NCBI GenBank assembly: GCA_017463565.1
Contig: JAFTOZ010000001.1
Span: forward strand, 1 to 36,161
Length of the DNA: 36,161 bases
Origin: Clostridia bacterium
Lineage (GTDB): Bacteria; Bacillota; Clostridia; Christensenellales; CAG-1252
Direction of reading: 5' to 3'
Part shown: positions 3,389 through 22,871 of the stretch, one piece after another
Layout: the number at the start of each line of letters is the position of its first letter
Numbering within the stretch: the first letter of the stretch is position 1
Position numbers and translations under genes: made by a program
Notes under the pieces: model-generated
What the model saw: the letters and a program-made list of their open reading frames with translations, nothing else
Databases searched by the model: none
Told to the model about the DNA's origin: nothing

Positions 3389-3426
3389 AACCTGACCCAA
3401 GTTTTCGCTTGGGTCAGGTTTTTTTG
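3389..3426 (+). terminator. Strong intrinsic terminator
   Basis: A perfect 13-bp stem, AACCTGACCCAAG (3389-3401) with CTTGGGTCAGGTT (3408-3420), has loop TTTTCG and is followed by a T-run. It ends the membrane-protein transcript 33 nt after its stop codon. Confidence 0.92.
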
Positions 3427-3548: not shown

Positions 3549-3576
3549 TTGACTTTGGCAGACTTCATGGTATAAT
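3549..3576 (+). promoter_or_regulatory. Near-consensus sigma-A promoter for the giant nuclease gene
   Basis: TTGACT (3549-3554), a 16-bp spacer, and a perfect TATAAT (3571-3576). The start site would be near 3583, leaving a short leader with a GAGGGGTGG ribosome binding site just before the ATG at 3607. Confidence 0.8.
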
Positions 3577-3606
3577 AAAAACGAAAAAACTTCGAGGGGT
3601 GGCTTT

Positions 3607-6600
3607 ATGTTTACCAGAAAAGCAAACAAAACTTCATTCGTTGCGATTATCCTTGCGGTGATCCTCATTTGCGGACTTGTAGCAAGCCTATTGGGGCTGT
3701 CTTTGGGCAATACGCCCAGCACGGTGTATGCGGCAGAGGGGAATTACTATGATTCCATCGACACCGACCTACGAGGCGATGCGCTGCGTGCACAGATTGC
3801 ATCCTTGATCACCAGTACGCACCACACAAATCCTTCCTATTCGGCAGGACTCGCAGCGCTGTTTGAAGTGTCGGACATCAACCCCAATACGGGCAAGGTG
3901 ATTCAGTTCTACACGGGTACCGAAACCAACGGCTTCACAGGTAACCGTGAGCACGTGTGGCCCAAAAACGGTGGCAAGGCATTCCCTGCTGAGAGCGAGG
4001 CCGGCTCGGACGGACACCATTTGCGCCCCTGTGACAACAACTTGAACAGCGCCAGAAGTAGCCTGAGTTTTGGCGAGGTGGATCAAACGAGCGGAAACCT
4101 TGTGCAGGAAAACGGTTCGAGCAGTTACAAGAGTTTGTGCTATAAAACCTCGGAATATTTCTATCCCGGCGAGGGCTTCCGCGGACAAACGGCACGTATT
4201 TTGATGTACGTGCAGACCCGTTGGGGTGATGATTATAACTTGTCCTTTGTGTTGGGCGCAGGCTCCAACAAGACTATCGGCGATATCGAAACGTTGATGA
4301 AGTGGCACATTCAAGAGCCCCCAACCGAGCAGGAAATGTACCGCAACGAGAAGGTTGCTGAATATCAGGGCAACCGCAACCCTTTTATCGACCATCCCGA
4401 GTATGCAGAAATGATTTACTGCCACGACGGCGAGAGCTACAACGACGAGTTGCAAGCCGTGGTGGAAACCTACGGCAGTTATCTTGCCGATCCCACTCCT
4501 ATCGAAAGTCTTTATGTTTCTCCTTCTACCGTCACCCTCACCGTGGGTGCCCAGGCAGTATTGGAAGTTACTCCCTATCCCACCAATGCTAGTAGCAAGG
4601 TGACCTGGACCACAAGCAATAGTGCTGTGGCTACCGTGAGCAACGGTTACGTGAACGCTGTCGGCAACGGCGTTGCGACCATCACCGCCACCAGTGTGGA
4701 AAATCCCAGTATTACTGCCACCACCACCATCACCGTCAAAACGCTTACCGCGCTTTCTATCAGCGGCAGCGCAACAAAAACGACCTACTACGAGGGAGAT
4801 CCCTTTGACCCCACGGGACTGACCGTCGTTGGCACGTATAGCGACGGCACGACGGAAACCATAGACAACAGCCTATGTCAATGGTTGGATAGCACCACAA
4901 ACGAGGCGCTCCTTTCCAAGGGCTCTACCTCTGTCATTTGCAAGATGGCAGACGTAGGCGCAACCTATTCGGGGATTACCGTTAAGGCCTCTCTGGGCGG
5001 AACACTTGTCATTAGCCGTTCTTGCTTTAAGGATGAGAGCGCCTATGCATGGCACGCCTGGACGTCCGGCACCATTACGGGAAGTGCCTTCATATATGCG
5101 GACACCAAGAGCGCAATGCAGTTTAACCCCAGTAAGGACGCTTGTCATATCTACAACGATTTGCCCTTGCTTGGCGGTATCAAGACCGTTACCGTCAATA
5201 TGCTTGCGGATAAGACGGAAAGGGTTTGGGAATTGTATACCTCGAGCGAGCCTTTCTCTCAAAGTGAGGACTTTAGCTCTGGAACCTCTCACGGACAGCA
5301 GACCGTCACTACGTCGGGCGTGACGTGGACGGTGAATACCACCGATAAGTATTTTGCGCTGGTGGGCGTGGGTTCCTCGGGCGCCAGTTATCTGGAAACC
5401 ATTACCATTCAGTACGGCAGTAGCGAGCCCGATTGTGAGCACCAACTGGGCAGTTGGATTGCAGAAATTCCTGCTACCTGCACCCAAGAAGGTACGAAAG
5501 GGCACTACACCTGTTCTTTGTGCGCAAGCACCTTTGATAGCAACGAGGTTCTGATGGATGACCTTGTGATTGCCAAGTTGCCCCATACCGAGGTGGTAGA
5601 TGCGGCCGTTTCTGCAACTTGCACCGTAACCGGTTTGACCGAGGGCAAGCATTGTTCTGTATGTGACGAGATCCTGGTCGCACAAGTGACGGTTCCTCTC
5701 GCTGCCCACAAGGACGACAACGTAGATCAGAAGTGTGACGTTTGCGGTACGGATGTCATCATTTGTGCCCACGAAACAAACAAAGAAGTCGGCATGAACC
5801 TTACGCCTGCCGTTGATTCTACCTGCACCGAGGCAGGAAAACTTGCCTACTATACCTGCGCCAATTGCGCGGATAGATATGCCTATATCAACACGGTGTG
5901 GACCAAGATTACCGCAGACAGCCAATTGGTAGTCGCAGCCAAGGGTCACTCTTTTGCAGACGGCACCTGCTCTGTTTGTGGCGCGGCTGAGCCTGCTATC
6001 AGCGAAATCGAGTTTACCTTTGGCGACAACGGAGCGGCAGGACACAAGGACGGCAGCGCTATGAGCGCAAATACCTCCTATACCTCGGGCGGTTACACGT
6101 TGGAAATTGTCCCCGGGGAAAAGATTTATAGCGGCGCATTTGACGCGCTTGGAAACAGCGCTCTGAAGTTGGGCACCAGTTCTGCAGTTGGCTCCTTTAG
6201 CTTTACCGTGCCGAACGACGTCGTTCAGGTTATCATCTACGTGGCGCAGTACAAAGCAAACACGACGAAGATTAGTGTCAATTCCGGCGCTACGCAAACT
6301 ATCACCACCGCATCGGATAGCGGTGCGTATACTGCCGTTGAGGTAGATACTTCTTCAAACAAGACGGTTAACTTTACCACCGTATCCGGTGGTGCGCGTG
6401 CTATGATCGACAAGATCGTGTACGTGTTGGGTGCGCCCCACGAGCACGCGTGGGACGAGGGTGAGATAACGACCACCGCCACCTGCACCGTGCCTGGCGT
6501 GAAGACCTATACTTGCTCTTGCGGCGAGACCAAGACCGAGGCAATCGCTGCCTTGGGTCATACCGTAGAGGCTATTCTCGGGACTCCTGCTACCTGCACC

Positions 6601-9600
6601 GAGGCAGGCAAAACGGACGGAGAGAAGTGCTCGGTGTGCGGTGAGATCTTGACCGCACAAACGGAAATTCCTGCCACCGGCCATAAGGACGGCAATGCAG
6701 ACAACGAGTGTGACGGTTGCGGCACCGCTATGGTGGTATGCGACCACGCAAACAAAAAGGAAGAGGGTATGAACCTCACACCTGCCGTTGACTCTACCTG
6801 CACCGAGGCAGGTAAACTGGCATACTACACCTGCGACTTCTGCAGTGAAAAGTATGCCTATATCAACACGGTCTGGACGAAGATTGAGTCGGAAAGCCAA
6901 TTGGTAGATCCTGCACTTGGTCACGCCGAGCAAGCTCTCCCCGGCAAGGCTGCCACCTGTACCGAGAGCGGTTTGACTGCCGGCGTGAAGTGCTCGGTAT
7001 GCGACGAGATTTTGACCGCACAAACGGTAATCCCCGCTAACGGTCACACCTACGTAGACGGCACTTGTTCCGTTTGCGGCGAGGCTAAGCCCGCCGTTCA
7101 AAACGTCACCTACGATATGGTGACAAACTTCGGCACCTACGGTAGTACGTGGAACAATAGTTACGTTTCTCGAACGATCCAGTCTACCGACCTGGGTAGC
7201 GGTCTACCTGCGGCGACTATCGTATTGAGCAATGCTAACAAACAAACGCAAACCATCACTGACCGTCCCGTTATTTGTTCCAAGGGTACCGTGCAATACG
7301 TAACCCTGACCTTGACAGAAGAAGGCAAGAGTATTTCTGCCGTGACTTTCCATCTGCAACAATGGACCAGCAAGGTGATGAAGGATATCCATATTGAATA
7401 TCAAAATTCCGAGGGAACTTGGGTGAGCTGTAGTGACGTGATTACCACGCCTGCGGATTTGTCCGGTAATATTGCAGTTGCAGGAGTAACTGCCGTGCGC
7501 CTGTCTTATACGTCCAGCACCAGTAGCAATACTCAAATCGGCTTGACGGGTATCAGTATTGCGTTTGCCTCTGCCGGCGGAGAAGGCTCGCACGAGCACG
7601 CTTGGGGCGAGGGCGAAGTTACTACCCAGCCCACTTGTACCGCAGAGGGTGAGCGCACCTATACCTGCTCCTGTGGAGAGACCAAGACCGAGCCTGTCGA
7701 GGCAAAGGGTCACACCCAAGTCACCTTGCCTGCAGTAGAGGCAACCTGTACCTCTACCGGTTTGACCGCAGGTAGCAAATGTTCCGTTTGTAACACCGTT
7801 TTGAGCGCACAAGCAGTTGTGCCTATGACGGCGCACACCGAGGGAGATTGGATCGTTGACGATGAAGCCACCTGTACCCAAGACGGTATCAAGCATACCG
7901 AGTGCACGGTGTGCGGTGCGGAGATGAATGTAGAGCTGATTGCGCCTCTGGGCCACACCGAGGGTGAGTGGATTATTGATGCCGAGCCTACCTGTACGGT
8001 GACCGGTTTGAAGCACACCGTGTGTACGGTGTGCGGTGAGGACGTGAGACTGGAGGAAATCCCCGTGGTTGCGCATAGCGAGAGCGAATGGAAGATTCTT
8101 GTGGATGCAACCTGTACTGAGGCGGGCTTGCGATACAAAGATTGCACCGTGTGTGGAGCAGACGTAGCCGAAGAGGACATTGCACCCAAAGGCCACACCG
8201 AAGTGGTAGACGCTGCCGTTGCACCTACCTGTACGGCTCCCGGTGTAAGCGCAGGCAAACATTGTTCTGTTTGTAACGAAATCCTGGTAGCACAAGAGGC
8301 AGTTCCTGCCCTTGGCCATGCCGAGCAGATCATTCCCGGCACCGCCGCTACTTGCACCTCTACCGGTTTGACTGCCGGTGTGAAGTGCTCCGTTTGTGAT
8401 ACGGTTCTCACCGCCCAGACGATTATCCCCATTGCAGAACACACCGTGGTTGTGGACGAGGCAGTTGCACCTACCTGTACCGCAACCGGTTTGACAGAGG
8501 GCAAGCATTGCTCCGTTTGTAACGAAGTCCTCTTGGCGCAAGAAGTTGTTCCAGCGCTTGGCCATACCGAGGCAATCGACAAGGCAGTTGCCGCAACTTG
8601 TACTGCAACCGGTTTAACCGAGGGAAAACATTGTTCTGTTTGTGGCGTGGTGTTGAAGGCACAAGAAACCGTAGCCGCCCTCGGCCATAGCGAAGTGGTA
8701 GACGAGGCAGTTCCGGCCACTTGTACCGCAACCGGTTTGACGGAAGGCAAGCATTGCTCCGTTTGTAGCGTAGTACTTGTGGCGCAAGCGCCCGTTGCCG
8801 CCCTCGGTCATACTGAAGTGATTGACGTTGCCGTTCCTGCAACTTGTACCACTCCCGGCGTGACCGCAGGTAAACATTGTTCCGTTTGCAACACGGTACT
8901 GGTGGAGCAGGAGAGTGTGCCTGCCCTTGGCCATACCGAGGTTGCCATTCCCGGCACTGCCGCTACTTGCACCGCTACCGGTTTGACCGCAGGTGTGAAG
9001 TGTTCTGTTTGCGATATTGTTCTCACCGCACAAACGGTGATACCTGCGCTCGGTCATACCGAGGAAACTATTCCTGCCGTTCCTGCGACTTGTACCGCTA
9101 CCGGTCTTACCGCAGGCACAAAATGCTCCGTTTGCGGCGTTGTTTTGAGTGCACAAGAGGTTGTGCCTATGATGGCGCACACCGAGAGTGATTGGATTAT
9201 TGATAAGGAGTCCAGTTGTACTTTGGAAGGCAGTAAGCACAAAGAGTGTACCGTATGCCATACCAAACTGGCAGAAGAAGTCATTGAAAAACTGCCCCAC
9301 ACCGAGGGTGGTTGGATTGTGGATAAGGCCGCAACTTGCACCAAAGATGGCGCTAAACATACCGAATGTACCGTCTGCGGTACAACCATCAATAGCGCAA
9401 CTATCGATAAACTCGGCCACACCGAAGTGGTGGATGTTGCCGTTGCTCCCACCTGTACTGCAACAGGTAAGACGGCAGGCAAGCATTGCTCCGTTTGTAG
9501 CGTAGTACTTGTGGCGCAAGAAACGGTAGCAGCACTCGGTCATACCGAGGTGGTAGACGAAGCGGTTGCGCCTACTTGTACCGCAACAGGCTTGATGCAA

Positions 9601-12600
9601 GGCAAGCATTGCTCCGTATGCGACACCGTTTTGGTGGCACAACAGGTATTGCCTGCACTTGGCCACACCGAAGTTATCATTCCCGGCACCGCTGCAAGTT
9701 GCACCGCAACCGGTTTGACGGAGGGCGTGAAGTGTTCCGTTTGTAACGTTGTGATTACCGCCCAGACGGTTATTCCTGCTCTCGATCATACTGAAGCGGT
9801 TGACGTTGCCGTTGCGCCTACTTGTACCGCAACCGGCTTGACCGCAGGCAAACATTGCTCTGTTTGTGGCGAGATTTTGGTTGCACAAACGGTGGTACCT
9901 GCTCTTGGCCATACCGAGGTAATCGACGTGGCCGTCGCACCTACCTGCACTGCAACCGGTTTGACGGAAGGCAAGCATTGTTCCGTATGTAACGCCGTAT
10001 TGGTGGCACAGGAAGTTGTTTCTTCGCTTGGCCACACCGTCGTTGCCGATGCCGCCGTTCCTGCCACTTGTACCGCAACCGGTCTGACCGCAGGTATCCA
10101 TTGCTCTGTTTGCGAGGAAGTGTTGGTCGCCCAAGAAGTGGTTCCTGCCAAGGGTCACGACAAGGTGCAACACGAAGCCCTTGCCGCCACCTGCACGACC
10201 GCAGGCCACAATGCATACGAAACCTGCTCGCGTTGCGACTATAGCACTTACGAAGAAATTTCCGCTCTGGGTCACAGCTACAACGAGGTTGGCCTTTGCC
10301 CTGCTTGCGGCCTGAAAGATCCCAGTCTGTGCACCCACCCCGTCATCACTCACGTGCCTGCGGTAGAGGCTACCTGTACGGCAAACGGTCATCTGGAATA
10401 TTGGGTCTGCGAGGGTTGCCAAGTGATTTATAAAGACGAAGCGCACACGCAAGAGACCACCTTGGCGGAGTTGAACGTACCCGCCACGGGTCACACCGAA
10501 GTGGTAGACGTAGCCGTTGCGCCCACCTGTACTGCCACGGGTCTGACCGAGGGCAAGCATTGCTCCGTATGTAACGCTATTTTGGTGGAGCAGGAGACCG
10601 TGTCTGCTTTGGGTCATCGCCACACCGCTACCGTGACGCAACCCACCTGTACTGCCGTTGGCTACACCACCTACACCTGCCATTGCGGTGATACCTATAC
10701 CGACAACGAGGTTGACGCACTTGGCCACACCGAGGTTGTGGACGCTGCCGTTGCCCCCACCTGTACCGCAACCGGTTTGACAGAAGGCAAACATTGTTCC
10801 GTCTGCGGCGAAGTATTGGTCGCACAAGACGTTATTGACGAACTGGGCCATACCGAGGTTATTGATATTGCCGTTGCCGCAACTTGTACCGCTACCGGTT
10901 TGACCGAAGGTAAGCATTGCTCCGTTTGCGACGAGGTTTTGGTGGCGCAAGCAGAAGTGCCTGCACTTGGACATACGGTTGTATTGGACGAGGCAGTTGC
11001 CCCCACTTGTACCGCCACCGGCCTGACTGCAGGTCGCCATTGCTCCGTCTGTGGCGAGGTGCTGAAAGCCCAAGAAGAAGTGCCTGCACTTGGCCATACC
11101 GAGGTGGTCGATGGGGCCGTTGAATCTACCTGCACCGCAACCGGTCTGACGGAGGGCAAGCATTGTTCTGTTTGTAACGCCGTATTGGTGGCGCAAGAGG
11201 TTGTGCCCACCAAGGCACACACCGAGAGTGAGTGGATTATCGACGAAGATTCCACCTGCACCGTGGCTGGTAGCAAGCACAAAGAATGTACCGTCTGCCA
11301 TACCCAATTGGCAGAGGAAGAGATCGCACCCAAGGGTCATATCGAGGGAGAGTGGATTGTTGATGAAAACGCTACCTGCTCCGATGTCGGCAGCAAGCAC
11401 ACCGCTTGTACCGTTTGTGGCGTAACCCTCAACACCGCCGAGATTGAAAAATTGCCTCATACCGAAGTATTGGACGAGGCAGTTGCACCCACTTGTACCG
11501 AAACCGGTTTGACGGAGGGCAAGCATTGCTCCGTTTGTGGCGAAGTTTTGGTGGCACAAGAAGAGGTTGCCGCTACCGGTCATACCGAAGAAATCATTCC
11601 TGCAGTAGAGGCTACCTGCACTGCAACCGGCTTGAGTGAAGGCAAGAAGTGTTCCGTTTGCGACACCGTATTGGTGGAACAAGAGGTTGTACCCACCAAG
11701 GCGCACACCGAGGGCGAGTGGATTATCGACGAAGATTCCACCTGCACCGTGGCTGGTAGCAAGCACAAAGAATGTACCGTCTGCCATACCCAATTGGCAG
11801 AGGAAGATATCGCACCCAAGGGTCATACCGAGGGAGAGTGGATTGTTGATGAAAACGCTACCTGTTCCAATGTCGGCAGCAAGCACATCGCTTGTACCGT
11901 TTGTGGCGTAACCCTCAACACCGCCGAGATTGAGAAGCTGCCTCATACCGAAGTGGTGGACGAGGCAGTTGCGCCTACTTGTACCGAAACCGGTCTGACC
12001 GAGGGCAAGCATTGCTCCGTCTGTGGGGAGGTGCTGGAAGCGCAAGAAACCGTAGCGGCACTTGGGCATACCGAAGTTGTAGACGAGGCAGTTGCGCCCA
12101 CTTGTACCGTAACCGGTTTGACGGAGGGCAAGCATTGCTCCGTTTGCGACACCGTATTGGTGGCACAAGAAGAGGTTGCCGCTACCGGCCATACCGAAGA
12201 AATCATTCCTGCAGTAGAAGCCACCTGCACCGCCACCGGCTTGACCGCAGGTAAGAAGTGTTCCGTTTGCGACACCGTATTGGTGGCACAAGAGGTTGTA
12301 CCCACCAAGGCGCACACCGAGAGCGAGTGGATTATCGATGAAGATTCCACCTGTACCGAGGCTGGTAGCAAGCACAAAGAATGTACCGTTTGCCATACCA
12401 AACTGGCAGAAGAAGAGATCGCACCCAAGGGTCATACCGAGAGTGAGTGGATTGTTGACGAAGATTCCACCTGTACCGAGGTTGGTAGCAAGCACAAAGA
12501 ATGTACCGTCTGCCATACCCAATTGGCAGAAGAAGAGATTGCACCCAAGGGGCATACCGAAAGCGATTGGATTGTAGTGGCCGATCCTACCTGTACGGTA

Positions 12601-14070
12601 ACGGGTCTGAAGTACACCGAATGCACCGTCTGCGGCGAGGAAATGGATTTGGCTGAAATTCCCACCGTTCCCCATGTAGAGAGTGATTGGATCATCGACG
12701 AGGACGCCACCTGCACCGAGGACGGTATCAAGCATACCGAATGTACTGCTTGTGGCTACGAGTTCAAGATCGAATTAATTGCACCCACAGGCCACGTGGA
12801 GGGCGAGTGGATTATTGATGCAGAGCCTACCTGCGACGTGACGGGTATCAAGCACACCGAATGTAGCGTTTGCGGTGGGGACGTATCCATTGAGGAAATT
12901 CCTGCTCTCGGCCACGTAGAAAGTGGTTGGATTGTAGACACAGCCGCTACCTGCACCGAAGAAGGTCTGAAGCACACCGAATGCACCGTGTGCCACGAGC
13001 AACTGAATGTGGAAGTGTTGGATGCGCTTGGCCATACCGAAGTGGTAGATCCTGCCGTTGCCGCTACCTGCACCACAACGGGTCTTACCGAGGGCAAGCA
13101 TTGCTCTGTTTGCGAAGAGGTTTTGGTTGCTCAAACTGTGGTTGCCGCACTTGGTCACACCGAAGTGATAGACAAGGCAGTACCTGCTACTTGTACCGCA
13201 ACAGGACTTACCGAGGGCAAGCATTGCTCTGTATGTGAAGAAGTTTTGGTAGCGCAGACCGTGGTCTCCGCACTTGGCCATACCGAGGAAGAGATTCCTG
13301 CCGTTGCTGCTACTTGTACCGAGTCCGGTTTGACGGCAGGTAGCAAGTGTTCGGTATGTCAGGAGGTTTTGGAGGCACAAACGGTGGTATCTGCTACCGG
13401 CCATACCGAAGTGGTAGATCCTGCCGTTGCCGCTACCTGCACCGCAACGGGTCTTTCTGAGGGCAAACATTGTTCCGTTTGCGAAGAGGTCTTGGTTGCT
13501 CAAACCGTGGTTGCTGCACTTGGCCACACCGAGGTGGTAGACAAAGCAGTATCTGCTACTTGCACCGCAACGGGTCTTACCGAAGGTAAGCATTGCTCCG
13601 TCTGTGAGGAAATTTTGGTTGCCCAAATTCCCACCGAAAAGGTTCCCCATACGTTTGGCGATTGGATCGTCAGCACGCAACCCACCACCACCGCCAAAGG
13701 CGAAGAACGCCGCACCTGCTCCGTATGTGGCGAGGTGGAAACGAGAGAAACACAACTCTCTGCTGGCGCTGTCGAATTTGCCTCTACTGCAAACTCTATT
13801 CTTTTGGGAGAGGGCAAGAAGGCAGAATTGGCAGAGATGATTGATTGTATGGAATTGTACGGTAGTCTGTCTGCAGAGGAAAAGCTGGTGTTTGCCGAGG
13901 AGTATCAATCTTTGGTGGATAAGGTTGCCGCCTACAACGCCGAATTGCAAGCCACGGCTAAGAACCAGAATGTTGTCAAGGGTGCCTTGATTGGTGTTGC
14001 CGCAGCCGTCGCTCTTGCGGGTATCGGTATCTTGATCTGGCGCCTCAAGGTAAAGCGTAAGAAGAGCTAA
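3607..14070 (+). CDS. Giant cell-surface Endonuclease I-type nuclease with ~62-module Cys/His stalk, 3487 aa
   Basis: A signal peptide (cleavage near VYA-AEG, residues 41-45) precedes an Endonuclease I domain at about 50-295. Its motifs are REHVWP (114-119, His-Me finger histidine), DGHHLRP (135-141), Asn145/Asn147, the helix RGQTARILMY, and RNPFIDHPE (257-265). Next are a Big_2 Ig-like domain (about 300-375) and a Big_3-like domain (about 380-465). Three beta-sandwich inserts follow at about 467-605, 797-948 and 1163-1327. Around and after them run about 62 Cys/His modules, continuous from about residue 1328 to 3390. The C-terminus is a coiled, charged segment, one membrane helix (about 3455-3478) and the basic tail KVKRKKS. 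There is no LPXTG. The expected role is metal-dependent DNA or RNA cleavage at the cell surface; the stalk role is unknown. It has its own promoter and terminator. The reading frame is intact throughout despite the repeats. Confidence 0.92.
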   Translation: MFTRKANKTSFVAIILAVILICGLVASLLGLSLGNTPSTVYAAEGNYYDSIDTDLRGDALRAQIASLITSTHHTNPSYSAGLAALFEVSDINPNTGKVIQFYTGTETNGFTGNREHVWPKNGGKAFPAESEAGSDGHHLRPCDNNLNSARSSLSFGEVDQTSGNLVQENGSSSYKSLCYKTSEYFYPGEGFRGQTARILMYVQTRWGDDYNLSFVLGAGSNKTIGDIETLMKWHIQEPPTEQEMYRNEKVAEYQGNRNPFIDHPEYAEMIYCHDGESYNDELQAVVETYGSYLADPTPIESLYVSPSTVTLTVGAQAVLEVTPYPTNASSKVTWTTSNSAVATVSNGYVNAVGNGVATITATSVENPSITATTTITVKTLTALSISGSATKTTYYEGDPFDPTGLTVVGTYSDGTTETIDNSLCQWLDSTTNEALLSKGSTSVICKMADVGATYSGITVKASLGGTLVISRSCFKDESAYAWHAWTSGTITGSAFIYADTKSAMQFNPSKDACHIYNDLPLLGGIKTVTVNMLADKTERVWELYTSSEPFSQSEDFSSGTSHGQQTVTTSGVTWTVNTTDKYFALVGVGSSGASYLETITIQYGSSEPDCEHQLGSWIAEIPATCTQEGTKGHYTCSLCASTFDSNEVLMDDLVIAKLPHTEVVDAAVSATCTVTGLTEGKHCSVCDEILVAQVTVPLAAHKDDNVDQKCDVCGTDVIICAHETNKEVGMNLTPAVDSTCTEAGKLAYYTCANCADRYAYINTVWTKITADSQLVVAAKGHSFADGTCSVCGAAEPAISEIEFTFGDNGAAGHKDGSAMSANTSYTSGGYTLEIVPGEKIYSGAFDALGNSALKLGTSSAVGSFSFTVPNDVVQVIIYVAQYKANTTKISVNSGATQTITTASDSGAYTAVEVDTSSNKTVNFTTVSGGARAMIDKIVYVLGAPHEHAWDEGEITTTATCTVPGVKTYTCSCGETKTEAIAALGHTVEAILGTPATCTEAGKTDGEKCSVCGEILTAQTEIPATGHKDGNADNECDGCGTAMVVCDHANKKEEGMNLTPAVDSTCTEAGKLAYYTCDFCSEKYAYINTVWTKIESESQLVDPALGHAEQALPGKAATCTESGLTAGVKCSVCDEILTAQTVIPANGHTYVDGTCSVCGEAKPAVQNVTYDMVTNFGTYGSTWNNSYVSRTIQSTDLGSGLPAATIVLSNANKQTQTITDRPVICSKGTVQYVTLTLTEEGKSISAVTFHLQQWTSKVMKDIHIEYQNSEGTWVSCSDVITTPADLSGNIAVAGVTAVRLSYTSSTSSNTQIGLTGISIAFASAGGEGSHEHAWGEGEVTTQPTCTAEGERTYTCSCGETKTEPVEAKGHTQVTLPAVEATCTSTGLTAGSKCSVCNTVLSAQAVVPMTAHTEGDWIVDDEATCTQDGIKHTECTVCGAEMNVELIAPLGHTEGEWIIDAEPTCTVTGLKHTVCTVCGEDVRLEEIPVVAHSESEWKILVDATCTEAGLRYKDCTVCGADVAEEDIAPKGHTEVVDAAVAPTCTAPGVSAGKHCSVCNEILVAQEAVPALGHAEQIIPGTAATCTSTGLTAGVKCSVCDTVLTAQTIIPIAEHTVVVDEAVAPTCTATGLTEGKHCSVCNEVLLAQEVVPALGHTEAIDKAVAATCTATGLTEGKHCSVCGVVLKAQETVAALGHSEVVDEAVPATCTATGLTEGKHCSVCSVVLVAQAPVAALGHTEVIDVAVPATCTTPGVTAGKHCSVCNTVLVEQESVPALGHTEVAIPGTAATCTATGLTAGVKCSVCDIVLTAQTVIPALGHTEETIPAVPATCTATGLTAGTKCSVCGVVLSAQEVVPMMAHTESDWIIDKESSCTLEGSKHKECTVCHTKLAEEVIEKLPHTEGGWIVDKAATCTKDGAKHTECTVCGTTINSATIDKLGHTEVVDVAVAPTCTATGKTAGKHCSVCSVVLVAQETVAALGHTEVVDEAVAPTCTATGLMQGKHCSVCDTVLVAQQVLPALGHTEVIIPGTAASCTATGLTEGVKCSVCNVVITAQTVIPALDHTEAVDVAVAPTCTATGLTAGKHCSVCGEILVAQTVVPALGHTEVIDVAVAPTCTATGLTEGKHCSVCNAVLVAQEVVSSLGHTVVADAAVPATCTATGLTAGIHCSVCEEVLVAQEVVPAKGHDKVQHEALAATCTTAGHNAYETCSRCDYSTYEEISALGHSYNEVGLCPACGLKDPSLCTHPVITHVPAVEATCTANGHLEYWVCEGCQVIYKDEAHTQETTLAELNVPATGHTEVVDVAVAPTCTATGLTEGKHCSVCNAILVEQETVSALGHRHTATVTQPTCTAVGYTTYTCHCGDTYTDNEVDALGHTEVVDAAVAPTCTATGLTEGKHCSVCGEVLVAQDVIDELGHTEVIDIAVAATCTATGLTEGKHCSVCDEVLVAQAEVPALGHTVVLDEAVAPTCTATGLTAGRHCSVCGEVLKAQEEVPALGHTEVVDGAVESTCTATGLTEGKHCSVCNAVLVAQEVVPTKAHTESEWIIDEDSTCTVAGSKHKECTVCHTQLAEEEIAPKGHIEGEWIVDENATCSDVGSKHTACTVCGVTLNTAEIEKLPHTEVLDEAVAPTCTETGLTEGKHCSVCGEVLVAQEEVAATGHTEEIIPAVEATCTATGLSEGKKCSVCDTVLVEQEVVPTKAHTEGEWIIDEDSTCTVAGSKHKECTVCHTQLAEEDIAPKGHTEGEWIVDENATCSNVGSKHIACTVCGVTLNTAEIEKLPHTEVVDEAVAPTCTETGLTEGKHCSVCGEVLEAQETVAALGHTEVVDEAVAPTCTVTGLTEGKHCSVCDTVLVAQEEVAATGHTEEIIPAVEATCTATGLTAGKKCSVCDTVLVAQEVVPTKAHTESEWIIDEDSTCTEAGSKHKECTVCHTKLAEEEIAPKGHTESEWIVDEDSTCTEVGSKHKECTVCHTQLAEEEIAPKGHTESDWIVVADPTCTVTGLKYTECTVCGEEMDLAEIPTVPHVESDWIIDEDATCTEDGIKHTECTACGYEFKIELIAPTGHVEGEWIIDAEPTCDVTGIKHTECSVCGGDVSIEEIPALGHVESGWIVDTAATCTEEGLKHTECTVCHEQLNVEVLDALGHTEVVDPAVAATCTTTGLTEGKHCSVCEEVLVAQTVVAALGHTEVIDKAVPATCTATGLTEGKHCSVCEEVLVAQTVVSALGHTEEEIPAVAATCTESGLTAGSKCSVCQEVLEAQTVVSATGHTEVVDPAVAATCTATGLSEGKHCSVCEEVLVAQTVVAALGHTEVVDKAVSATCTATGLTEGKHCSVCEEILVAQIPTEKVPHTFGDWIVSTQPTTTAKGEERRTCSVCGEVETRETQLSAGAVEFASTANSILLGEGKKAELAEMIDCMELYGSLSAEEKLVFAEEYQSLVDKVAAYNAELQATAKNQNVVKGALIGVAAAVALAGIGILIWRLKVKRKKS
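5434..13776 (+). repeat. Array of ~62 Cys/His protein modules (mostly 120 or 123 bp units)
   Basis: There are two main module types. The 41-residue type starts HTEVVD, contains PTCTATGLTEGKHCSVC, and has His1, Cys13, Cys24 and Cys27. The 40-residue type starts HTEGEWIVD, contains GSKH-x-x-CTVC, and has His1, Cys14, Cys24 and Cys27. Minor types include a short HKDxNxDxxCDxCG unit and a longer unit beginning CAHETNKE or CDHANKKE. The count of about 62 is by eye from the translation. From about 7590 to 13760 the modules run without interruption. Codon choices vary between copies, so most copies are old; some blocks are nearly identical at DNA level. Confidence 0.9.
11218..12312 (+). repeat. Recent segmental duplication inside the Cys/His array
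   Basis: Block A (11218-11703, four modules, 486 bp) is followed directly by block B (11704-12312, five modules, 609 bp). The first 280 bp or so of the two are almost identical base for base, and the last modules match again (HTEEIIPAVEATC types). Block B has one additional HTEVVD-type module. A third partial copy of the block start follows at 12313. All steps are whole modules, so the frame is kept. Confidence 0.85.
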
Positions 14071-15070: not shown

Positions 15071-15100
15071 AGTATAGCACGTCTGCCCATTTTTGCGCAA
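15071..15100 (-). promoter_or_regulatory. Probable promoter for the alpha/beta hydrolase
   Basis: On the minus strand, TTGCGC (15100-15095), an 18-bp spacer, and TATACT (15076-15071). It gives a start site near 15064 and agrees with translation from 15041. The -35 is weak. Confidence 0.5.
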
Positions 15101-15164
15101 CCGTCGCACCTCAAAATCCTCTCGCACGCGCCCTCTTGCGCGCGCATTTTTTTTGTGCTATGTC

Positions 15165-15194
15165 TTGACAACGCCGCTTTTAGATGCCTATAAT
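15165..15194 (+). promoter_or_regulatory. Consensus sigma-A promoter for the LRR/InlB-repeat lipoprotein
   Basis: Perfect TTGACA (15165-15170), 18-bp spacer, perfect TATAAT (15189-15194). It lies about 80 nt upstream of the ATG at 15273, which shows that the open frame from 15093 to 15272 is not translated. It diverges from the hydrolase promoter, with about 65 bp between the -35 boxes. Confidence 0.85.
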
Positions 15195-15272
15195 AAGATG
15201 TACCATTATATTCTTTGGTACAGACAGCATAGACTCACTTCACGAGATGATTACGAAAAAGGAGTAACGCGT

Positions 15273-18200
15273 ATGAATCGGTATTTGAAAGTTTTATTGT
15301 TTGCCATAATCGTTCTGTCTCTGAGCGTTTGCTTGGTGGCTTGCGATGGCGTCACTCTTCCCCCCGATGACGGTGGCGAAGGCACACCTGCCACGTTCAC
15401 CGTTCGCTACGATGCCAACGGTGGCTCGGGCTTTATGTCCAATTCCGTCTGTACGGAGGGGGATTCCCTTTTGGTCAAGAACTGCACCTTCAGCAAGGCA
15501 GGCATGGTTTTCCAATCTTGGAACACCAAGGCCGACGGCTCGGGTGAGGCCTATCAACCCGCTGACCAATTGACTCCCACCGCCAATATGACCTTGTATG
15601 CCATTTGGGGTAGCGGATCAGCAGATCCCGATATTTGGACGGTGCACTACGACGCCAACGGTGGTTCGGGCACCATGAAGGATTCCACCTGCGACAAGGG
15701 TGATTCCATCACGGTGAAGCGTTGCACCTTTACCGCAGACAGCGACTTTGTAGAGTGGAATACCAAGGCCGACGGCTCGGGCGAGTCCTACCAACCTGCC
15801 GACGAGCTGACCCCTGGCGGCAACATGACTCTCTACGCTATTTGGGAGAGCCCTGTGGTAGATCCCGATATTTGGACGGTGCGCTACGACGCCAACGGCG
15901 GCTCGGGCACCATGAAAGATTCTACCTGCGACAAGGGAGACTCTATCACCGTCAGACGTTGCACCTTTACCGCAGACAGCGATTTTGTAGAGTGGAACAC
16001 CAAGGCCGATGGCTCCGGCGAGTCCTACCAACCTGCCGACGAGCTGACCCCTGATGGCAACATGACTCTCTACGCTATTTGGGAAAGCCCTGTGGTAGAA
16101 CCCGATATTTGGACAATTCGATATAACGCCAACGGCGGCACCGGCTCTATGCAGGAGAATGAGTACGAGGACGGCACGCAAATACATATTGCCGCTAACG
16201 GTTTCTCCTATACCGGCAAGGTGTTCGTCAGTTGGAACACCGCCGCAGACGGTAGCGGCGTTACCTATAATCCCGGTCAACTGTTGGTAGTGACCGAAAA
16301 TCTGGATTTGTATGCAATTTGGGCAGACGAGGCCGTCACCCTCTATACCGTGACCTACCACGCAAACGGTGGTAGTGGTTCTATGCCCAGCACGTCCTAT
16401 CCCCAAGGCACCCTGATCAACGTCCTGGAGAATGCGTTTACCCACACCCTCAACTTCTTGGAGTGGAACACCGCGGCGGACGGCACCGGCACTTCTTACG
16501 CGCCTGCGCAACAGGTTGCGTTGGAGGCGGACCTCGACTTGTACGCTATCTGGGAAGTGGAGTATTGCACCGTTACCTTTGACTATTGCGGATTTGGTGC
16601 CAATACCAGCGTATCCGTTCCCAAAAACACCTTGGTAGAGGAGCCCACAGCCCCCATCGCAGGTGGCTATACCTTTGAGGGTTGGTACACCCAAAAAGAA
16701 GGCGGCGTAAGGTGGATTTTCAATACCAACGCCGTCAGCGAAACCATGACTCTGTATGCGCATATGTTGCAGGTAGGCGTGGGCATCGTATCCGTCAATA
16801 ACGGCTACGTCACGGGCAACTCTATCTATATCACCGTACCCGAGGGCACGGCAGCCTATTCCCTGAATGGGCAATTGGAGACCACCAAGAACTCCGCTTG
16901 GAAACTCTACGCCGCCACCCTTACCGGTGTGGCAGAGGTTCCCACCCGTATGCTCACGGGCATCGGCATCGGCGAAAACTTTGGTGACGGCTCGTATACG
17001 CTGACCGTTTGGGACGTCAATGACGAAAACGTGCGCGAATCCTACATCATCACCGTATTCCGTCAATTCACTGCTACGATCAACTACTACGGCTACAACT
17101 ACACGCCCTCGACCGGCGAGATTGATCCTCTGACCGGTTACAAGAAGTACGACGATACCTTTGAGTTGGGTTGTCTGGAGCCGACCGAAACCCCCATCAA
17201 GACCGAAAAGATCAAGGTAGAGCAAGCAGGTACCACCCTTTCTATTGACCACGTGCCTGCTATGTCGATCCCGGGTCACACCCTGACAGGGTACGACTTT
17301 GAGTTTGGCGTGGAGGAATTGGAAGATGAAGTCATCGATATCTATCCTCTGTTTGAGACCGACGTCTATACCGTCACCCTCTATACCGGTACCGAAACCA
17401 AACAAATTGAAATTCTCTACGACTACTGTATTTTCTACGAGCCGAATCCCTCGGTTGAAGAGGGCACTTTCGTTGGCTATTACACCGAGGCTGGGGTGAA
17501 GTTCCTGTCTGCCTCTATGATTTATTGCGATTGCTTGTACCTGATGCCTCTGGGTGGTATTGACGCGCTGTATGCGAAATACATTATGAATCAATATCCC
17601 TTGAACGTATACGGCGAAAACGGCACCGTGACGGTAGAGGGCGCAGGGGACTATACGTTCGGCAAGGAAGTTGATTTCGCCAGCCGCGTTACGCTGGAGG
17701 CAACTCCCGATACGGGCTATCGCTTCGTGGGTTGGACGATGGAAGGCGTTAGCGGTTATCTGTCCACCGACCCCACCTACGACTATCGTATCGGCAAGGT
17801 AAACGAAATCACCGCCGAGTTTGAGGCACTTCGCTTCACCATCACGTTGGACGCAAGTACCTATCCCGTAGAGCAAACCGAGTATGAGATTGCTTATGGC
17901 GAGAGTATCACGCTGCCTATTCCGGAGGGTGAAGGCTACTTTATGGGTTGGACTCTGGAGGACGGCACCAAGATCACCGGCGAGCAGGGCGAACTGCTTG
18001 CTCCCTACGCTTACCTCGAGAATATCACCGTCTATCCCAACTTCGTCATGCTGTCGATTGAAAATGGCGAATTGACGGCAGTGTTGGAAGTTCCTGCAAA
18101 CGGCATTTTGGAGTTGCCCACAAGCGTGACTTCCATTGCCGCGAATGCAATTCCTGCAGGCGTCAAGTATTTGGTGATTACGTCCGAGGGCGGCCTGCAG

Positions 18201-21200
18201 TTGTATCGGGGGTCCTTTGATCGAGCAACCGATCTGATAGCGGTATCCTTCCCCGACAGTGAATCCACCGCAGAGATTGACTTCGGTAACCTTTCTTCGG
18301 ACGCGCTGTTCCTGTTTGGGTTCGATTCCTCTCATTCCGATCGAATCTCCAGAGATTTCTGTGATAATAAATTATTTAACTGTACCCTTGACGACTACGT
18401 GGTTGTGAACGGCGGTACCTACTATAAGCATGACGACGGTGCGGCGCTTGTGGACTATAATGGCACCGCAGAAGTCTTCTACATGGAAGATAGCGTGACC
18501 ATTCACGGTGTAGAGTGCCCTGTGACGTTCATTGCGCAACCTGCCGTGCTCGACAAGAGTTTCCATGCCATCATGGTGTCCGACAACGTCACCGATATTA
18601 ACAATTTCGGCGGCTCGCCTCTGCACATTGCCCGTAGCGGACAGGAGGGGGCATCATGGCAAAAAATCGACGGCGTCAAGTACGCAAGACTCCCCTACAA
18701 GAGCATGGAAGAGGGCGTAGAATACGTCTTTATGGGAGACTACTACCTTCGTATCGACACCGTCGCCAAAGAGGCGGTGATCTATGCCATTTTCCACGAA
18801 GAGGACGAGGAAGTGTTCAATCTGAACTTCCCCGCATTCGTCCGTGGATCAGACGGCACCGAGTATCCTATCACCAGGGTAGAAGAGCGCTCCCATAATA
18901 CCGTTTTTGGTACGGTAGGCAAATACAATCTGCACATCTCCGAGACTTTGACTCTCATCGACGCAGGTTTCTTGTACAACCTATCCATCGGCACCATCAA
19001 CGTTACCAACCTGACCAACTGGTGCACCATCTTTGAGATTAGCGGTAACTCCATGTACAACCTGGCATATCAAGCAGAGGCCATCCTTTTCAAGGGTGAA
19101 CCCATCGTGGACTTGGTCATTCCGGAAGGTGTCGAGAGCATTCAGGAGTACGCCTTCTATCAATGCACGAGTATCAAATCGGTATTTATTCCTGATAGTA
19201 TAAAGACGGTAGGACAAAAGGCCTTCCTTGGTTGTACCGGCATAGAAAGTTTGAATGTGCCCTTCGTGGGAGAAACTGCAACCGCCAATCAAAATGTGAG
19301 TTGGATGTTTGGCGAGGCTGCTAAGTCTTCGCTGAAAGAGGTCACCGTCCGTGGCAAGGTTGCCATTGGAGATAATGCCTTTGATTCGCACCTTGCTTTG
19401 GAAAAGGTCACTCTGTCTGCGGCAACGTCCATTGGCTATCGCGCATTCTATGGCTGCATTTCCTTGCGTGGAATAGACATTCCGGACTCCTGCACGAGCA
19501 TCGCAAACGATGCGTTCTACAACTGTTCTCTCTTGGCGGACGTGGCATTCTCCAATACCTTGCTGTCGATTGGCAATAATGCTTTCTACGATTGCACCTC
19601 GCTGAAAAAACTGGTATTCCCCGACTCTCTGGAGAGTATCGGTACTAATGCCTTCTGGAGCAATGAAAATCTCTATTCTGTCACGCTGGGCAAGAACCTC
19701 ACGTCTATTGGAAACCGTGCGTTTTATTTATGCACCAAATTGGCCGAGGTCATCAACCTGTCGTCTTTGCCTATCACCGCCGGTTCTGACGACTATGGTT
19801 ACGTAGCCTATTATGCAGAATTGGTAGTGACCGACGAAGAGGATCGCGCCTACCGTGAGGAAGGCAATTTCCTGGTTGGCGAAACGGATACGGAAAAGGT
19901 GCTCAAGAGCTATATCGGCTCGGACGAGTACGTGGTGATTCCCGACGGATTCACCTCTATTGCCCCCTCTGCATTTGCCGCAACCAAGGTTCGCAGGGTA
20001 GAGATCCCCGATAGCGTAACGAGCATTGGCGAAAAGGCTTTCTATTCCTGCGCCTATCTGACTGAGGTTGTTTTGAGCGAAACCAGCGGACTGCGTTCCA
20101 TTGGAAACCGTGCGTTTGAGGGCACTCAAATCAGTTCGTTGCTCCTCGGTCCCGACTTTGAGGAAATGGCAACTTCTGCTCTCGACTACTCTCGCGTGGT
20201 TGAGATTTACAACCTGTCCTCCTTCGTCCTCACGCCCGATTCGAATGGGAAATATTATGGCGCAGACACCGTCCTCAACGTCTATACGCCGAATGACGGT
20301 GAGAGTATCATTTCCGTCGAGGAGGGCGCGGTTGTCTATGCCTATGACGGCGAAGTATATCTGCACTCCTACTTGGGTACGCCCCACGAGATTGCAATTC
20401 CCGAGGGTGTTACGCTCTTCTCTTGCGAGAGCGTCCTCGACTCCCTTGCCAGGGCTTTGGTGAGCGTGCACTTCCCCTCCACGTTCAAGGAGATTCCTGC
20501 CTTTGCCTTCTGCGGTCCCACAAAGTTGGACTATGCAAAGTTGACGCACGTTACTTTTGCAGAGAACAGCGTACTGACGTCCATTGGCGAACAAGCCTTC
20601 ATCTTCTGCGCTCAACTGGCAGAAATCACCATCCCCAACAGCGTGACGTATATCGGTAGCAGCGCTTTCGCCGGTTGTACTTCGTTGGAGAAGATCAGTA
20701 TGCCTTTCGTGGGCGAAACCGCCACTACCAACAATACCTTTACTTGGATGGGTATTACTGCAAGCGTTCCCCTCAAAGAAGTCGTCATTCTCAGCGGCAC
20801 CAGCATTGGCGAAAGATTGTTCAACAGGTTCACTCTGTTGGAGCGTGTGACTTTGCCCTCCAATTTGGAAACCATCGGCGGCTATGCATTCCATGGTTGC
20901 AATCAGCTTATTGAAATCACCATTCCCGACTCCTGTACGAGTATTGGCGACTATGCTTTTGCATACTGCACGGCGCTTGAGCGTGTGACTTTGCCTTCTT
21001 CCCTCAAGTCCATTGGCAACTACGCCTTTAACGGTTGTACCGCGCTTAGCGAAATCACCATTCCCAACTCTTGTACGAGTATCGGCAACTATGCGTTTAG
21101 CGGTGGCACTGCGCTTAGCGAAATCACCCTTTCCTCTTCCTTGGAGACCATCGGTGAGTATGCGTTGGCCGGCGCTGCATTCCAGACGATTTCTCTGCCC

Positions 21201-21698
21201 AGCAGTTTGAAAACCATTGGCACGGGCGCCTTCAAGCAATGTGCTGCGTTGACACAGATCCAGATTCCGGGCTCCTGCACAAGTATTGGCGAGAGTGCTT
21301 TCGTCTATTGTAGTTCACTAACGAGTGTGATTTTCTCCAGCTCATCGGGCGTGAAAACCATACCGACCCGTGCTTTCGAATATTGCTCTGCCTTGACGCA
21401 AATCAGTATGCCCGATTCTTGCACGAGCATTGGAGAGTCTGCCTTCTCTGATTGCTCCAGTTTGACAAGCATAACCATTCCTGACAGCGTAACGAGTATC
21501 GGTAAGTATGCTTTCTATGACTGCAGAGCACTGTCTTCTATCACTTTGGGCAGGAAGTTGAGCAGTATTGGCAACAGTGCATTTGCCTTCTGCACCAATC
21601 TTCACACCATTTACAATAGGTCCTCCCTGCCTCTTACGAAAGGCAGCAGCGATTACGGTCACGTTGCATACTATGCTACCAATATTGTGAATAGGTAG
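15273..21698 (+). CDS. Giant lipoprotein adhesin: InlB/Listeria-Bacteroides repeats plus BspA-type LRRs, 2141 aa
   Basis: The true start is ATG 15273, with AAAGGAG at 15258-15264. The signal peptide ends in lipobox LVAC (Cys24), so the protein is lipid-anchored at its N-terminus, followed by a short acidic, Pro/Gly linker. Residues about 41-505 hold six Listeria-Bacteroides (Flg_new) repeats of the form YDANGGSG...WNTKADGSG...LYAIW. Residues about 505-930 hold further beta modules, including an InlB-like YRFVGW segment. From about 930, and densely from about 1275 to the end, are BspA-type LRR_5 repeats of about 23 residues (IPDSVTSIGEKAFYSC pattern). Capping-type inserts SSLPITAGSDDYGYVAYYA and a final SSLPLTKGSSDYGHVAYYA also occur. 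There is no C-terminal anchor. Such proteins generally bind host or bacterial surfaces; the ligand is unknown. It is a single-gene unit, ending at the terminator at 21754. Confidence 0.9.
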   Translation: MNRYLKVLLFAIIVLSLSVCLVACDGVTLPPDDGGEGTPATFTVRYDANGGSGFMSNSVCTEGDSLLVKNCTFSKAGMVFQSWNTKADGSGEAYQPADQLTPTANMTLYAIWGSGSADPDIWTVHYDANGGSGTMKDSTCDKGDSITVKRCTFTADSDFVEWNTKADGSGESYQPADELTPGGNMTLYAIWESPVVDPDIWTVRYDANGGSGTMKDSTCDKGDSITVRRCTFTADSDFVEWNTKADGSGESYQPADELTPDGNMTLYAIWESPVVEPDIWTIRYNANGGTGSMQENEYEDGTQIHIAANGFSYTGKVFVSWNTAADGSGVTYNPGQLLVVTENLDLYAIWADEAVTLYTVTYHANGGSGSMPSTSYPQGTLINVLENAFTHTLNFLEWNTAADGTGTSYAPAQQVALEADLDLYAIWEVEYCTVTFDYCGFGANTSVSVPKNTLVEEPTAPIAGGYTFEGWYTQKEGGVRWIFNTNAVSETMTLYAHMLQVGVGIVSVNNGYVTGNSIYITVPEGTAAYSLNGQLETTKNSAWKLYAATLTGVAEVPTRMLTGIGIGENFGDGSYTLTVWDVNDENVRESYIITVFRQFTATINYYGYNYTPSTGEIDPLTGYKKYDDTFELGCLEPTETPIKTEKIKVEQAGTTLSIDHVPAMSIPGHTLTGYDFEFGVEELEDEVIDIYPLFETDVYTVTLYTGTETKQIEILYDYCIFYEPNPSVEEGTFVGYYTEAGVKFLSASMIYCDCLYLMPLGGIDALYAKYIMNQYPLNVYGENGTVTVEGAGDYTFGKEVDFASRVTLEATPDTGYRFVGWTMEGVSGYLSTDPTYDYRIGKVNEITAEFEALRFTITLDASTYPVEQTEYEIAYGESITLPIPEGEGYFMGWTLEDGTKITGEQGELLAPYAYLENITVYPNFVMLSIENGELTAVLEVPANGILELPTSVTSIAANAIPAGVKYLVITSEGGLQLYRGSFDRATDLIAVSFPDSESTAEIDFGNLSSDALFLFGFDSSHSDRISRDFCDNKLFNCTLDDYVVVNGGTYYKHDDGAALVDYNGTAEVFYMEDSVTIHGVECPVTFIAQPAVLDKSFHAIMVSDNVTDINNFGGSPLHIARSGQEGASWQKIDGVKYARLPYKSMEEGVEYVFMGDYYLRIDTVAKEAVIYAIFHEEDEEVFNLNFPAFVRGSDGTEYPITRVEERSHNTVFGTVGKYNLHISETLTLIDAGFLYNLSIGTINVTNLTNWCTIFEISGNSMYNLAYQAEAILFKGEPIVDLVIPEGVESIQEYAFYQCTSIKSVFIPDSIKTVGQKAFLGCTGIESLNVPFVGETATANQNVSWMFGEAAKSSLKEVTVRGKVAIGDNAFDSHLALEKVTLSAATSIGYRAFYGCISLRGIDIPDSCTSIANDAFYNCSLLADVAFSNTLLSIGNNAFYDCTSLKKLVFPDSLESIGTNAFWSNENLYSVTLGKNLTSIGNRAFYLCTKLAEVINLSSLPITAGSDDYGYVAYYAELVVTDEEDRAYREEGNFLVGETDTEKVLKSYIGSDEYVVIPDGFTSIAPSAFAATKVRRVEIPDSVTSIGEKAFYSCAYLTEVVLSETSGLRSIGNRAFEGTQISSLLLGPDFEEMATSALDYSRVVEIYNLSSFVLTPDSNGKYYGADTVLNVYTPNDGESIISVEEGAVVYAYDGEVYLHSYLGTPHEIAIPEGVTLFSCESVLDSLARALVSVHFPSTFKEIPAFAFCGPTKLDYAKLTHVTFAENSVLTSIGEQAFIFCAQLAEITIPNSVTYIGSSAFAGCTSLEKISMPFVGETATTNNTFTWMGITASVPLKEVVILSGTSIGERLFNRFTLLERVTLPSNLETIGGYAFHGCNQLIEITIPDSCTSIGDYAFAYCTALERVTLPSSLKSIGNYAFNGCTALSEITIPNSCTSIGNYAFSGGTALSEITLSSSLETIGEYALAGAAFQTISLPSSLKTIGTGAFKQCAALTQIQIPGSCTSIGESAFVYCSSLTSVIFSSSSGVKTIPTRAFEYCSALTQISMPDSCTSIGESAFSDCSSLTSITIPDSVTSIGKYAFYDCRALSSITLGRKLSSIGNSAFAFCTNLHTIYNRSSLPLTKGSSDYGHVAYYATNIVNR
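15624..16097 (+). repeat. Two tandem near-identical 237-bp units in the InlB-type repeat region
   Basis: The units at 15624-15860 and 15861-16097 encode 79-residue modules starting DPDIWTV and ending ESPVV. They differ at only a small number of bases, most of them silent. A third, more diverged module starts at 16098 (EPDIWTI). Confidence 0.85.
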
Positions 21699-21784: not shown

Positions 21785-22864
21785 TTAACTCATTCGCTCC
21801 AAATACTGCACCGCCAAGGGGAAGAACTGTCGGTATGCGGCGCATACGTCCAACGAAACCCTTTCGCGCTTGCAGCCGCCACGGCAAAGGTGCAGATAGC
21901 GGCAAGTCCTGCATTTGTCATCTATCGCCAAACTCTCCGTGATAAAGTTGACGGCAACAGGGTGTTGTTCTAACCTCACAAAGTCGGTGTCTGCAATGTT
22001 TCCCAAGGAGTAGCGGTCGGTACAGAAAAAGTCGCAGGGATACACCTCGCCGTCTGCCTCTATCACGTACTGATGGGTGCAATGGCCGTTCATACCGCAT
22101 TGCTCTGCTCGCCGACCGTGCGCCAGCAACACCAGATTGTCAAATAGCCGTATCGAGGTATAGTTGCCCTCAATATAGTCCTTGAGGTACAGTCGAAAAC
22201 ATTTCTTCAAAAATTCTGCATACTCCTCGGCGTTGATATAAAAATCGCTATGCAAAGCAGGGTCTTCCTCGAGTGGGCGCAGACAGGGGATAAATTGCAG
22301 ATGTTTGAAGTTGTTGCGTTTGTAAAAGGTATAGATGGTTTCGATATTGGCGACTACGGGCTTTGTGACCACCGTCAGGATATTGAAAGCAACGCCCTTT
22401 GTGGACAGCAACCTTACTGCACGCATCACGCTCTCGTGCGTATTCTCTCCCTCGGCGTCAGTGCGCGGTGCGTGGGTGGCACGAATGCCGTCCAACGACA
22501 CGCCCACCAAATATCGCCCCGACCGAAACAGCGCACACCATTCCTCGTCTATCAAGGTGCCGTTGGTTTGCACCCCCACGTGCACAGGGCTACCGTAGAC
22601 GTTGAGTTGTGGCAACAAATCGGCGAATGCACGGAAAAACGCCTTGCCGGCAAGCAGCGGCTCGCCCCCTTGGAAAGAAATCATCACAGGACTACCCTTG
22701 GCAAAGGCAAACGCTTTTTGCAGTACGTCTCGCAGGGTGTCTATCTGCATAATGCCGTGTGAGGGCATCTCACGGCAGGCGGCAAGTGCGTGGTAGAAAC
22801 AGTAGTGGCATCGCAGGTTGCAGTTGGAGGATGCCGGTTTAATCATCAAAGAGATGGGGGGCAT
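21785..22864 (-). CDS. Anaerobic sulfatase-maturating enzyme (radical SAM/SPASM), 359 aa
   Basis: It converts the active-site cysteine of a Cys-type sulfatase to formylglycine in the cytoplasm, using S-adenosylmethionine. The radical SAM motif CNLRCHYCFY (CxxxCxxC, Cys15/19/22) lies at the N-terminus, and FQGGEP follows at about residue 65. The C-terminal third carries the SPASM cysteines: CGMNGHC, YPCDFFC, CRTCRYLHLCRGGC and a last DVC. These fit two auxiliary iron-sulfur clusters. Length and motifs match the anSME family. The first possible start is GTG at 22870, but ATG 22864 has GAGG five bases upstream and is preferred. That ATG lies 7 nt after the sulfatase stop, so translation is probably coupled. 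It is the last gene of the cassette. Confidence 0.9.
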   Translation of the reverse strand: MPPISLMIKPASSNCNLRCHYCFYHALAACREMPSHGIMQIDTLRDVLQKAFAFAKGSPVMISFQGGEPLLAGKAFFRAFADLLPQLNVYGSPVHVGVQTNGTLIDEEWCALFRSGRYLVGVSLDGIRATHAPRTDAEGENTHESVMRAVRLLSTKGVAFNILTVVTKPVVANIETIYTFYKRNNFKHLQFIPCLRPLEEDPALHSDFYINAEEYAEFLKKCFRLYLKDYIEGNYTSIRLFDNLVLLAHGRRAEQCGMNGHCTHQYVIEADGEVYPCDFFCTDRYSLGNIADTDFVRLEQHPVAVNFITESLAIDDKCRTCRYLHLCRGGCKRERVSLDVCAAYRQFFPLAVQYLERMS

Positions 22865-22871
22865 AGGCACC

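Follow-up and report, generated by a model that had tools for sequence, protein, structure and literature searches.

Positions 3607–14070 of the window (the whole 36,161-nucleotide stretch of DNA that was analysed) hold, exactly as the sequence-only reading had proposed, a single uninterrupted ORF for a 3487-residue protein. Its domain order is signal peptide, Endonuclease I, Big_2, Big_3, a long Cys/His array, a helical segment, a C-terminal membrane helix and a basic tail, and the gene has a control region of its own. The features are as follows:

3389–3420, + strand: terminator-like hairpin 5′ of the gene (14 pairs, then a T run)
3549–3576, + strand: sigma-70-like promoter, TTGACT-16-TATAAT (11/12 matches)
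3594–3599, + strand: probable ribosome-binding site GAGGGG ahead of the ATG, read directly from the sequence
3607–14070, + strand: stalked Endonuclease I protein, 3487 aa (ATG start, no internal stop)
3607–3735, + strand: signal peptide (hydropathy 3.11 at residue 11; cleavage-like VYA-AEG near residue 42–43)
3865–4401, + strand: Endonuclease_1 domain core, residues 87–265 (Pfam; E115, H116, N147 and R150 present)
4507–4716, + strand: Big_2 Ig-like domain, residues 301–370 (Pfam 41 bits, over cut-off; predicted fold)
4771–4869, + strand: Big_3 Ig-like domain, partial match, residues 389–421 (Pfam 25.7 bits, over cut-off)
4984–5430, + strand: unnamed beta-rich-looking domain, ~residues 460–608, conserved in homologues
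5440–13746, + strand: stalk, residues 612 to 3380, of 59 CxxC units, mostly with a period of 40/41 aa (putatively one zinc per unit)
5989–6471, + strand: unnamed domain inserted in the stalk, ~residues 795–955, with a close likeness in locus L044
7114–7656, + strand: second inserted non-repeat domain, ~residues 1170–1350
13804–13980, + strand: helical-looking pre-anchor segment, ~residues 3400–3458, also in the paralogue and homologues
13981–14067, + strand: C-terminal membrane helix (hydropathy 2.47 at residue 3459) and basic tail RLKVKRKKS

Considering the convergent hydrolase gene 3′ of the ORF, together with the upstream terminator-like hairpin and promoter-like site, the stalked-nuclease gene is probably transcribed alone. 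Large antisense ORFs over the gene (one of 1373 aa, among others) are by-products of the repeats. Elsewhere in the window, positions 15093–21698 (+) encode a BspA-type leucine-rich-repeat protein of ~2141–2201 aa with Listeria-Bacteroides repeats, a probable lipoprotein, and at 21785–24872 (−) a sulfatase adjoins a radical SAM/SPASM protein, and the pair probably represents an anaerobic sulfatase with its maturase. The 2646-aa surface protein at 26102–34042 (−) has InlB-like repeats and, from its translation, divergent Cys/His units, and ends in a C-terminal membrane helix with a basic tail.

The nuclease motifs do lie at the N-terminus, with REHVWP at residues 114–119 (including His116), DGHHLRP from residue 135 and RNPFIDHPE from residue 257. 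The Pfam search on which the nuclease assignment depended gave a strong match to Endonuclease_1 (PF04231; 106.3 bits, E = 2.7e-30, against a cut-off of 25), and Vibrio endonuclease I (2g7e, 2vnd) and Vvn (1oup, 1ouo) were matched by phmmer against the PDB with E-values of 1e-4 to 4e-4. In the alignment, D135, H137, L139, P141, N147 and R150 fall opposite identical residues of 2g7e. E115, H116, N147 and R150 (the EH of the EHVWP motif, and the Asn and Arg of N..R) are invariant in an 11-row alignment, and among their counterparts in Vvn are the Glu and Asn that bind metal and the His that acts as general base. A predicted model of residues 43–397 (pLDDT 77) matched 1oup with a Z of 11.3 (rmsd 2.8, 149 residues, 23% identity) and 1ouo with a Z of 11.2 over 157 residues, and Foldseek matched it to 2g7e (E = 1.6e-3). 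The modelled nuclease fold is Vvn-like, and the enzyme looks intact as judged by its catalytic residues and fold. The protein has these catalytic motifs and this fold in common with the Endonuclease I family (PF04231; Vvn 1ouo/1oup, V. cholerae 2g7e). However, those enzymes are periplasmic or secreted, single-domain proteins of ~210 residues, whereas the 3487-residue protein is multidomain, apparently membrane-anchored and ~16 times longer.

Between nuclease and anchor, none of the unnamed domains had a Pfam match over cut-off; for that at ~460–608, the PDB also gave no significant match. Another surface protein of the genome (L044 488–3754 (−), an open-ended frame of 1089 aa that contains 14 CxxC units, on a contig of 3754 bases) has a domain closely similar to that encoded at window positions 5989–6471, so domains seem to be shuffled between surface proteins.

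Within the stalk, 44 units are regular (29 of 41 residues, 15 of 40), and His1, Cys13/14, Cys24 and Cys27 are present in 44/44 of them. Across 238 units from the fetched loci, a set that includes part of the 3487-residue protein, Cys occupies 97, 100 and 99% of its three columns, and every one of the 150 unit hits that reach the His position has a His there. With three Cys and one His in each unit, the pattern fits a tetrahedral zinc site and not disulfides, and suits one putative CCCH (Cys3His) metal site per unit. EGF/laminin-type modules were rejected, as these have a disulfide pattern of 8 Cys per module versus only 3 Cys per 40 residues in the stalk. Pfam hits to the stalk (EGF_LMN_ATRN, zf-Vps39_C and others) were considered composition matches because the Cys are spaced differently and most of the hits cover no separate stretch. 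Profile searches gave no convincing Pfam or NCBIfam model for the repeat unit, and AlphaFold2 on four stalk units (pLDDT 39, too low to use) did not confirm the repeat fold. The 41-residue units have a mean amino-acid identity of 68%, and identical residues between units share a codon at 51% versus the 44% expected by chance. As codon agreement is near chance despite the identical residues, the copies are old, with the protein sequence under purifying selection. Given this low codon agreement, and with no exact repeat of at least 101 bases found inside the gene, an assembly artefact is unlikely.

The array matched the IgA protease (IgAse) chain of Thomasclavelia ramosa (PDB 9qa6; phmmer E = 6.7e-14), and a profile of the 41-residue unit type matched the IgAse ZBD repeats (E = 8.7e-4). 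The matching parts of IgAse are named ZBD1 and ZBD2 ('zinc-binding domains'; PMC12237041) and are of the same repeat type, with ~60% identity over a 36-residue stretch (HTAGEWIVDTPATATTAGTKHKECTVCH...) of one unit type. On this likeness, the stalk is newly identified as putative zinc-binding ZBD repeats in an array of extreme length. The zinc sites of the IgAse ZBDs, placed at the interfaces of three-stranded subdomains, are themselves predicted (2His2Cys or 3Cys1His), and the domains, which are without a close Dali homologue and may be a novel metal-binding fold, have been suggested to serve as a spacer placing the enzyme away from the wall (PMC12237041). Both proteins follow the same layout of enzyme, then spacer, then C-terminal helix. 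However, IgAse has five such subdomains, another enzyme and a predicted sortase motif (SPQTG), whereas the stalked nuclease has 59 units, with no sortase motif or sortase found. The extreme stalk of the sequence-only reading is supported, and what that reading missed is its material, putative zinc-binding repeats that also occur in many surface proteins of the order. ZBD-like repeats matched in 125 of the 297 genomes sampled from the order, many in large open frames (this and the other genome-wide counts rest on searches). In one probable solute-binding lipoprotein (L045 3039–5804), ZBD-like units lie between the lipid-anchor end and the binding domain.

Two other functions of the array were weighed. 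First, its main task might be to store or buffer metal on the cell surface (~59 zinc ions for each molecule), the nuclease being a passenger. The metal ligands are the most conserved positions of the units, and many surface proteins of the order that are not nucleases also have ZBD-like units, both in keeping with such a role, but Cys3His sites are usually tight and structural. The units are also few in relatives, and a solute-binding protein has them close to its N-terminus; both fit a structural spacer, and we consider metal buffering quite unlikely. Second, the units might be binding sites for DNA, glycan or host protein, making the array a multivalent adhesin that supplies the nuclease with substrate. 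Adhesins are common among repeat-rich surface proteins, and protein binding by the ZBDs is allowed as a possibility (PMC12237041). Nevertheless, the stalk is strongly acidic (net charge ~ −247), which speaks against DNA binding, and no match to a known binding domain was found, leaving an adhesin unlikely. For a stalk that acts as a spacer, the reach can be estimated from ZBD1, whose predicted model is ~110 Å long for 129 residues (PMC12237041). At ~0.85 Å per residue and roughly 2400 repeat residues, these published dimensions suggest that the stalk could reach ~0.2 µm if straight, although the two non-repeat domains that interrupt it are a point against a rod.

The C-terminal membrane helix and basic tail, also part of the sequence-only reading, are borne out by the hydropathy peak at residue 3459 and the terminal residues listed above. 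No LPXTG-like motif was found in the C-terminal 117 residues, and no sortase was matched in the genome, which is 93.5% complete, so that a sortase could be missing from the assembly. With neither found, the protein does not fit the sortase-anchored wall proteins; the membrane helix is the likelier anchor, and the sequence suggests that the protein is probably held by it. Streptococcal SpnA is a cell-wall-anchored nuclease with a different nuclease fold and sortase anchoring; SpnA-type nucleases have the idea of a surface-tethered nuclease in common with the 3487-residue protein, but SpnA is not known to have a 59-unit metal-binding stalk.

A search of genome contigs found 18 loci, 13 of which (L046–L058) are close homologues (57–67% identity), many from herbivore gut MAGs. 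Across these and a paralogue in the same genome (C19), the nuclease is 57–84% identical, and the Ig-like domain and helical segment are also common. The helical pre-anchor segment and terminal membrane helix are conserved in 11/13 close homologues and in the paralogue. The remaining two (L053 and L058, 493 aa) keep the helical segment, lack the membrane helix and are perhaps released forms. The close homologues carry 0–6 ZBD units versus 59 in the 3487-residue protein, and L049 has divergent Cys/His units that were not hit by the repeat model. The paralogue, whose nuclease is 82% identical, has the same helical segment and helix with ~4 CxxC units, and the two group with full support in the nuclease tree, so stalk length differs more than tenfold between close paralogues. 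The tether is thus a trait of the family and nothing peculiar to the 3487-residue protein, whose stalk length is the outlier.

The helix-less homologues also bear on whether proteolysis frees the nuclease from the membrane to work in solution, with the anchor only transient. Together with the T. ramosa IgAse, which has related repeats and whose activity is mostly in the supernatant (PMC12237041), they make such release possible. However, the anchor is kept in most homologues and in the paralogue, and a 59-unit stalk would be hard to explain on a soluble enzyme, so we doubt that this is how the protein works. A role in natural DNA uptake (competence) appears highly improbable. The genome does have a ComEC-like gene, but ComEC matches in 10/14 control genomes make this weak evidence for uptake, and a nuclease far from the membrane would fit uptake at a membrane channel poorly. 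The nuclease clade is also patchy among relatives. Nucleases in same-genus genomes are only 34–36% identical, and looking for relatives on plasmids yielded only matches below 60% identity.

Overall, we favor a membrane-anchored extracellular nuclease on a ZBD-like zinc-repeat stalk, with a probability of about 0.7. The Endonuclease I domain would be exported until the C-terminal helix stops in the membrane, with the N-terminus outside and the C-terminus inside, and the ~59 ZBD-like units in tandem, with one Cys3His metal site to clamp each, would form a stiff or semi-flexible rod. Such a rod would take the nuclease across the wall and capsule, perhaps as far as ~0.2 µm from the membrane; considering the length of the stalk, the enzyme probably sits well away from the cell. 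Its substrate there would be DNA, and perhaps RNA as well, of the gut contents or a biofilm, and the simplest use would be scavenging of the cleavage products near the cell. A surface-tethered nuclease that scavenges or clears DNA near the cell is most likely from sequence, with which nutrition, biofilm turnover and escape from host DNA traps agree alike.

More broadly, and with somewhat less than even odds in our estimate, the ~59 zinc-clamped modules and their ~0.2 µm rod may belong to an uncatalogued class of bacterial surface stalk that is widespread in gut Clostridia and is here drawn out to extreme length to display a nuclease. If the rod is zinc-clamped, anaerobic gut bacteria would have in it a common means of keeping enzymes at a distance from the cell without disulfides, and the 3487-residue protein would be an extreme, testable example of a ZBD-type stalk.
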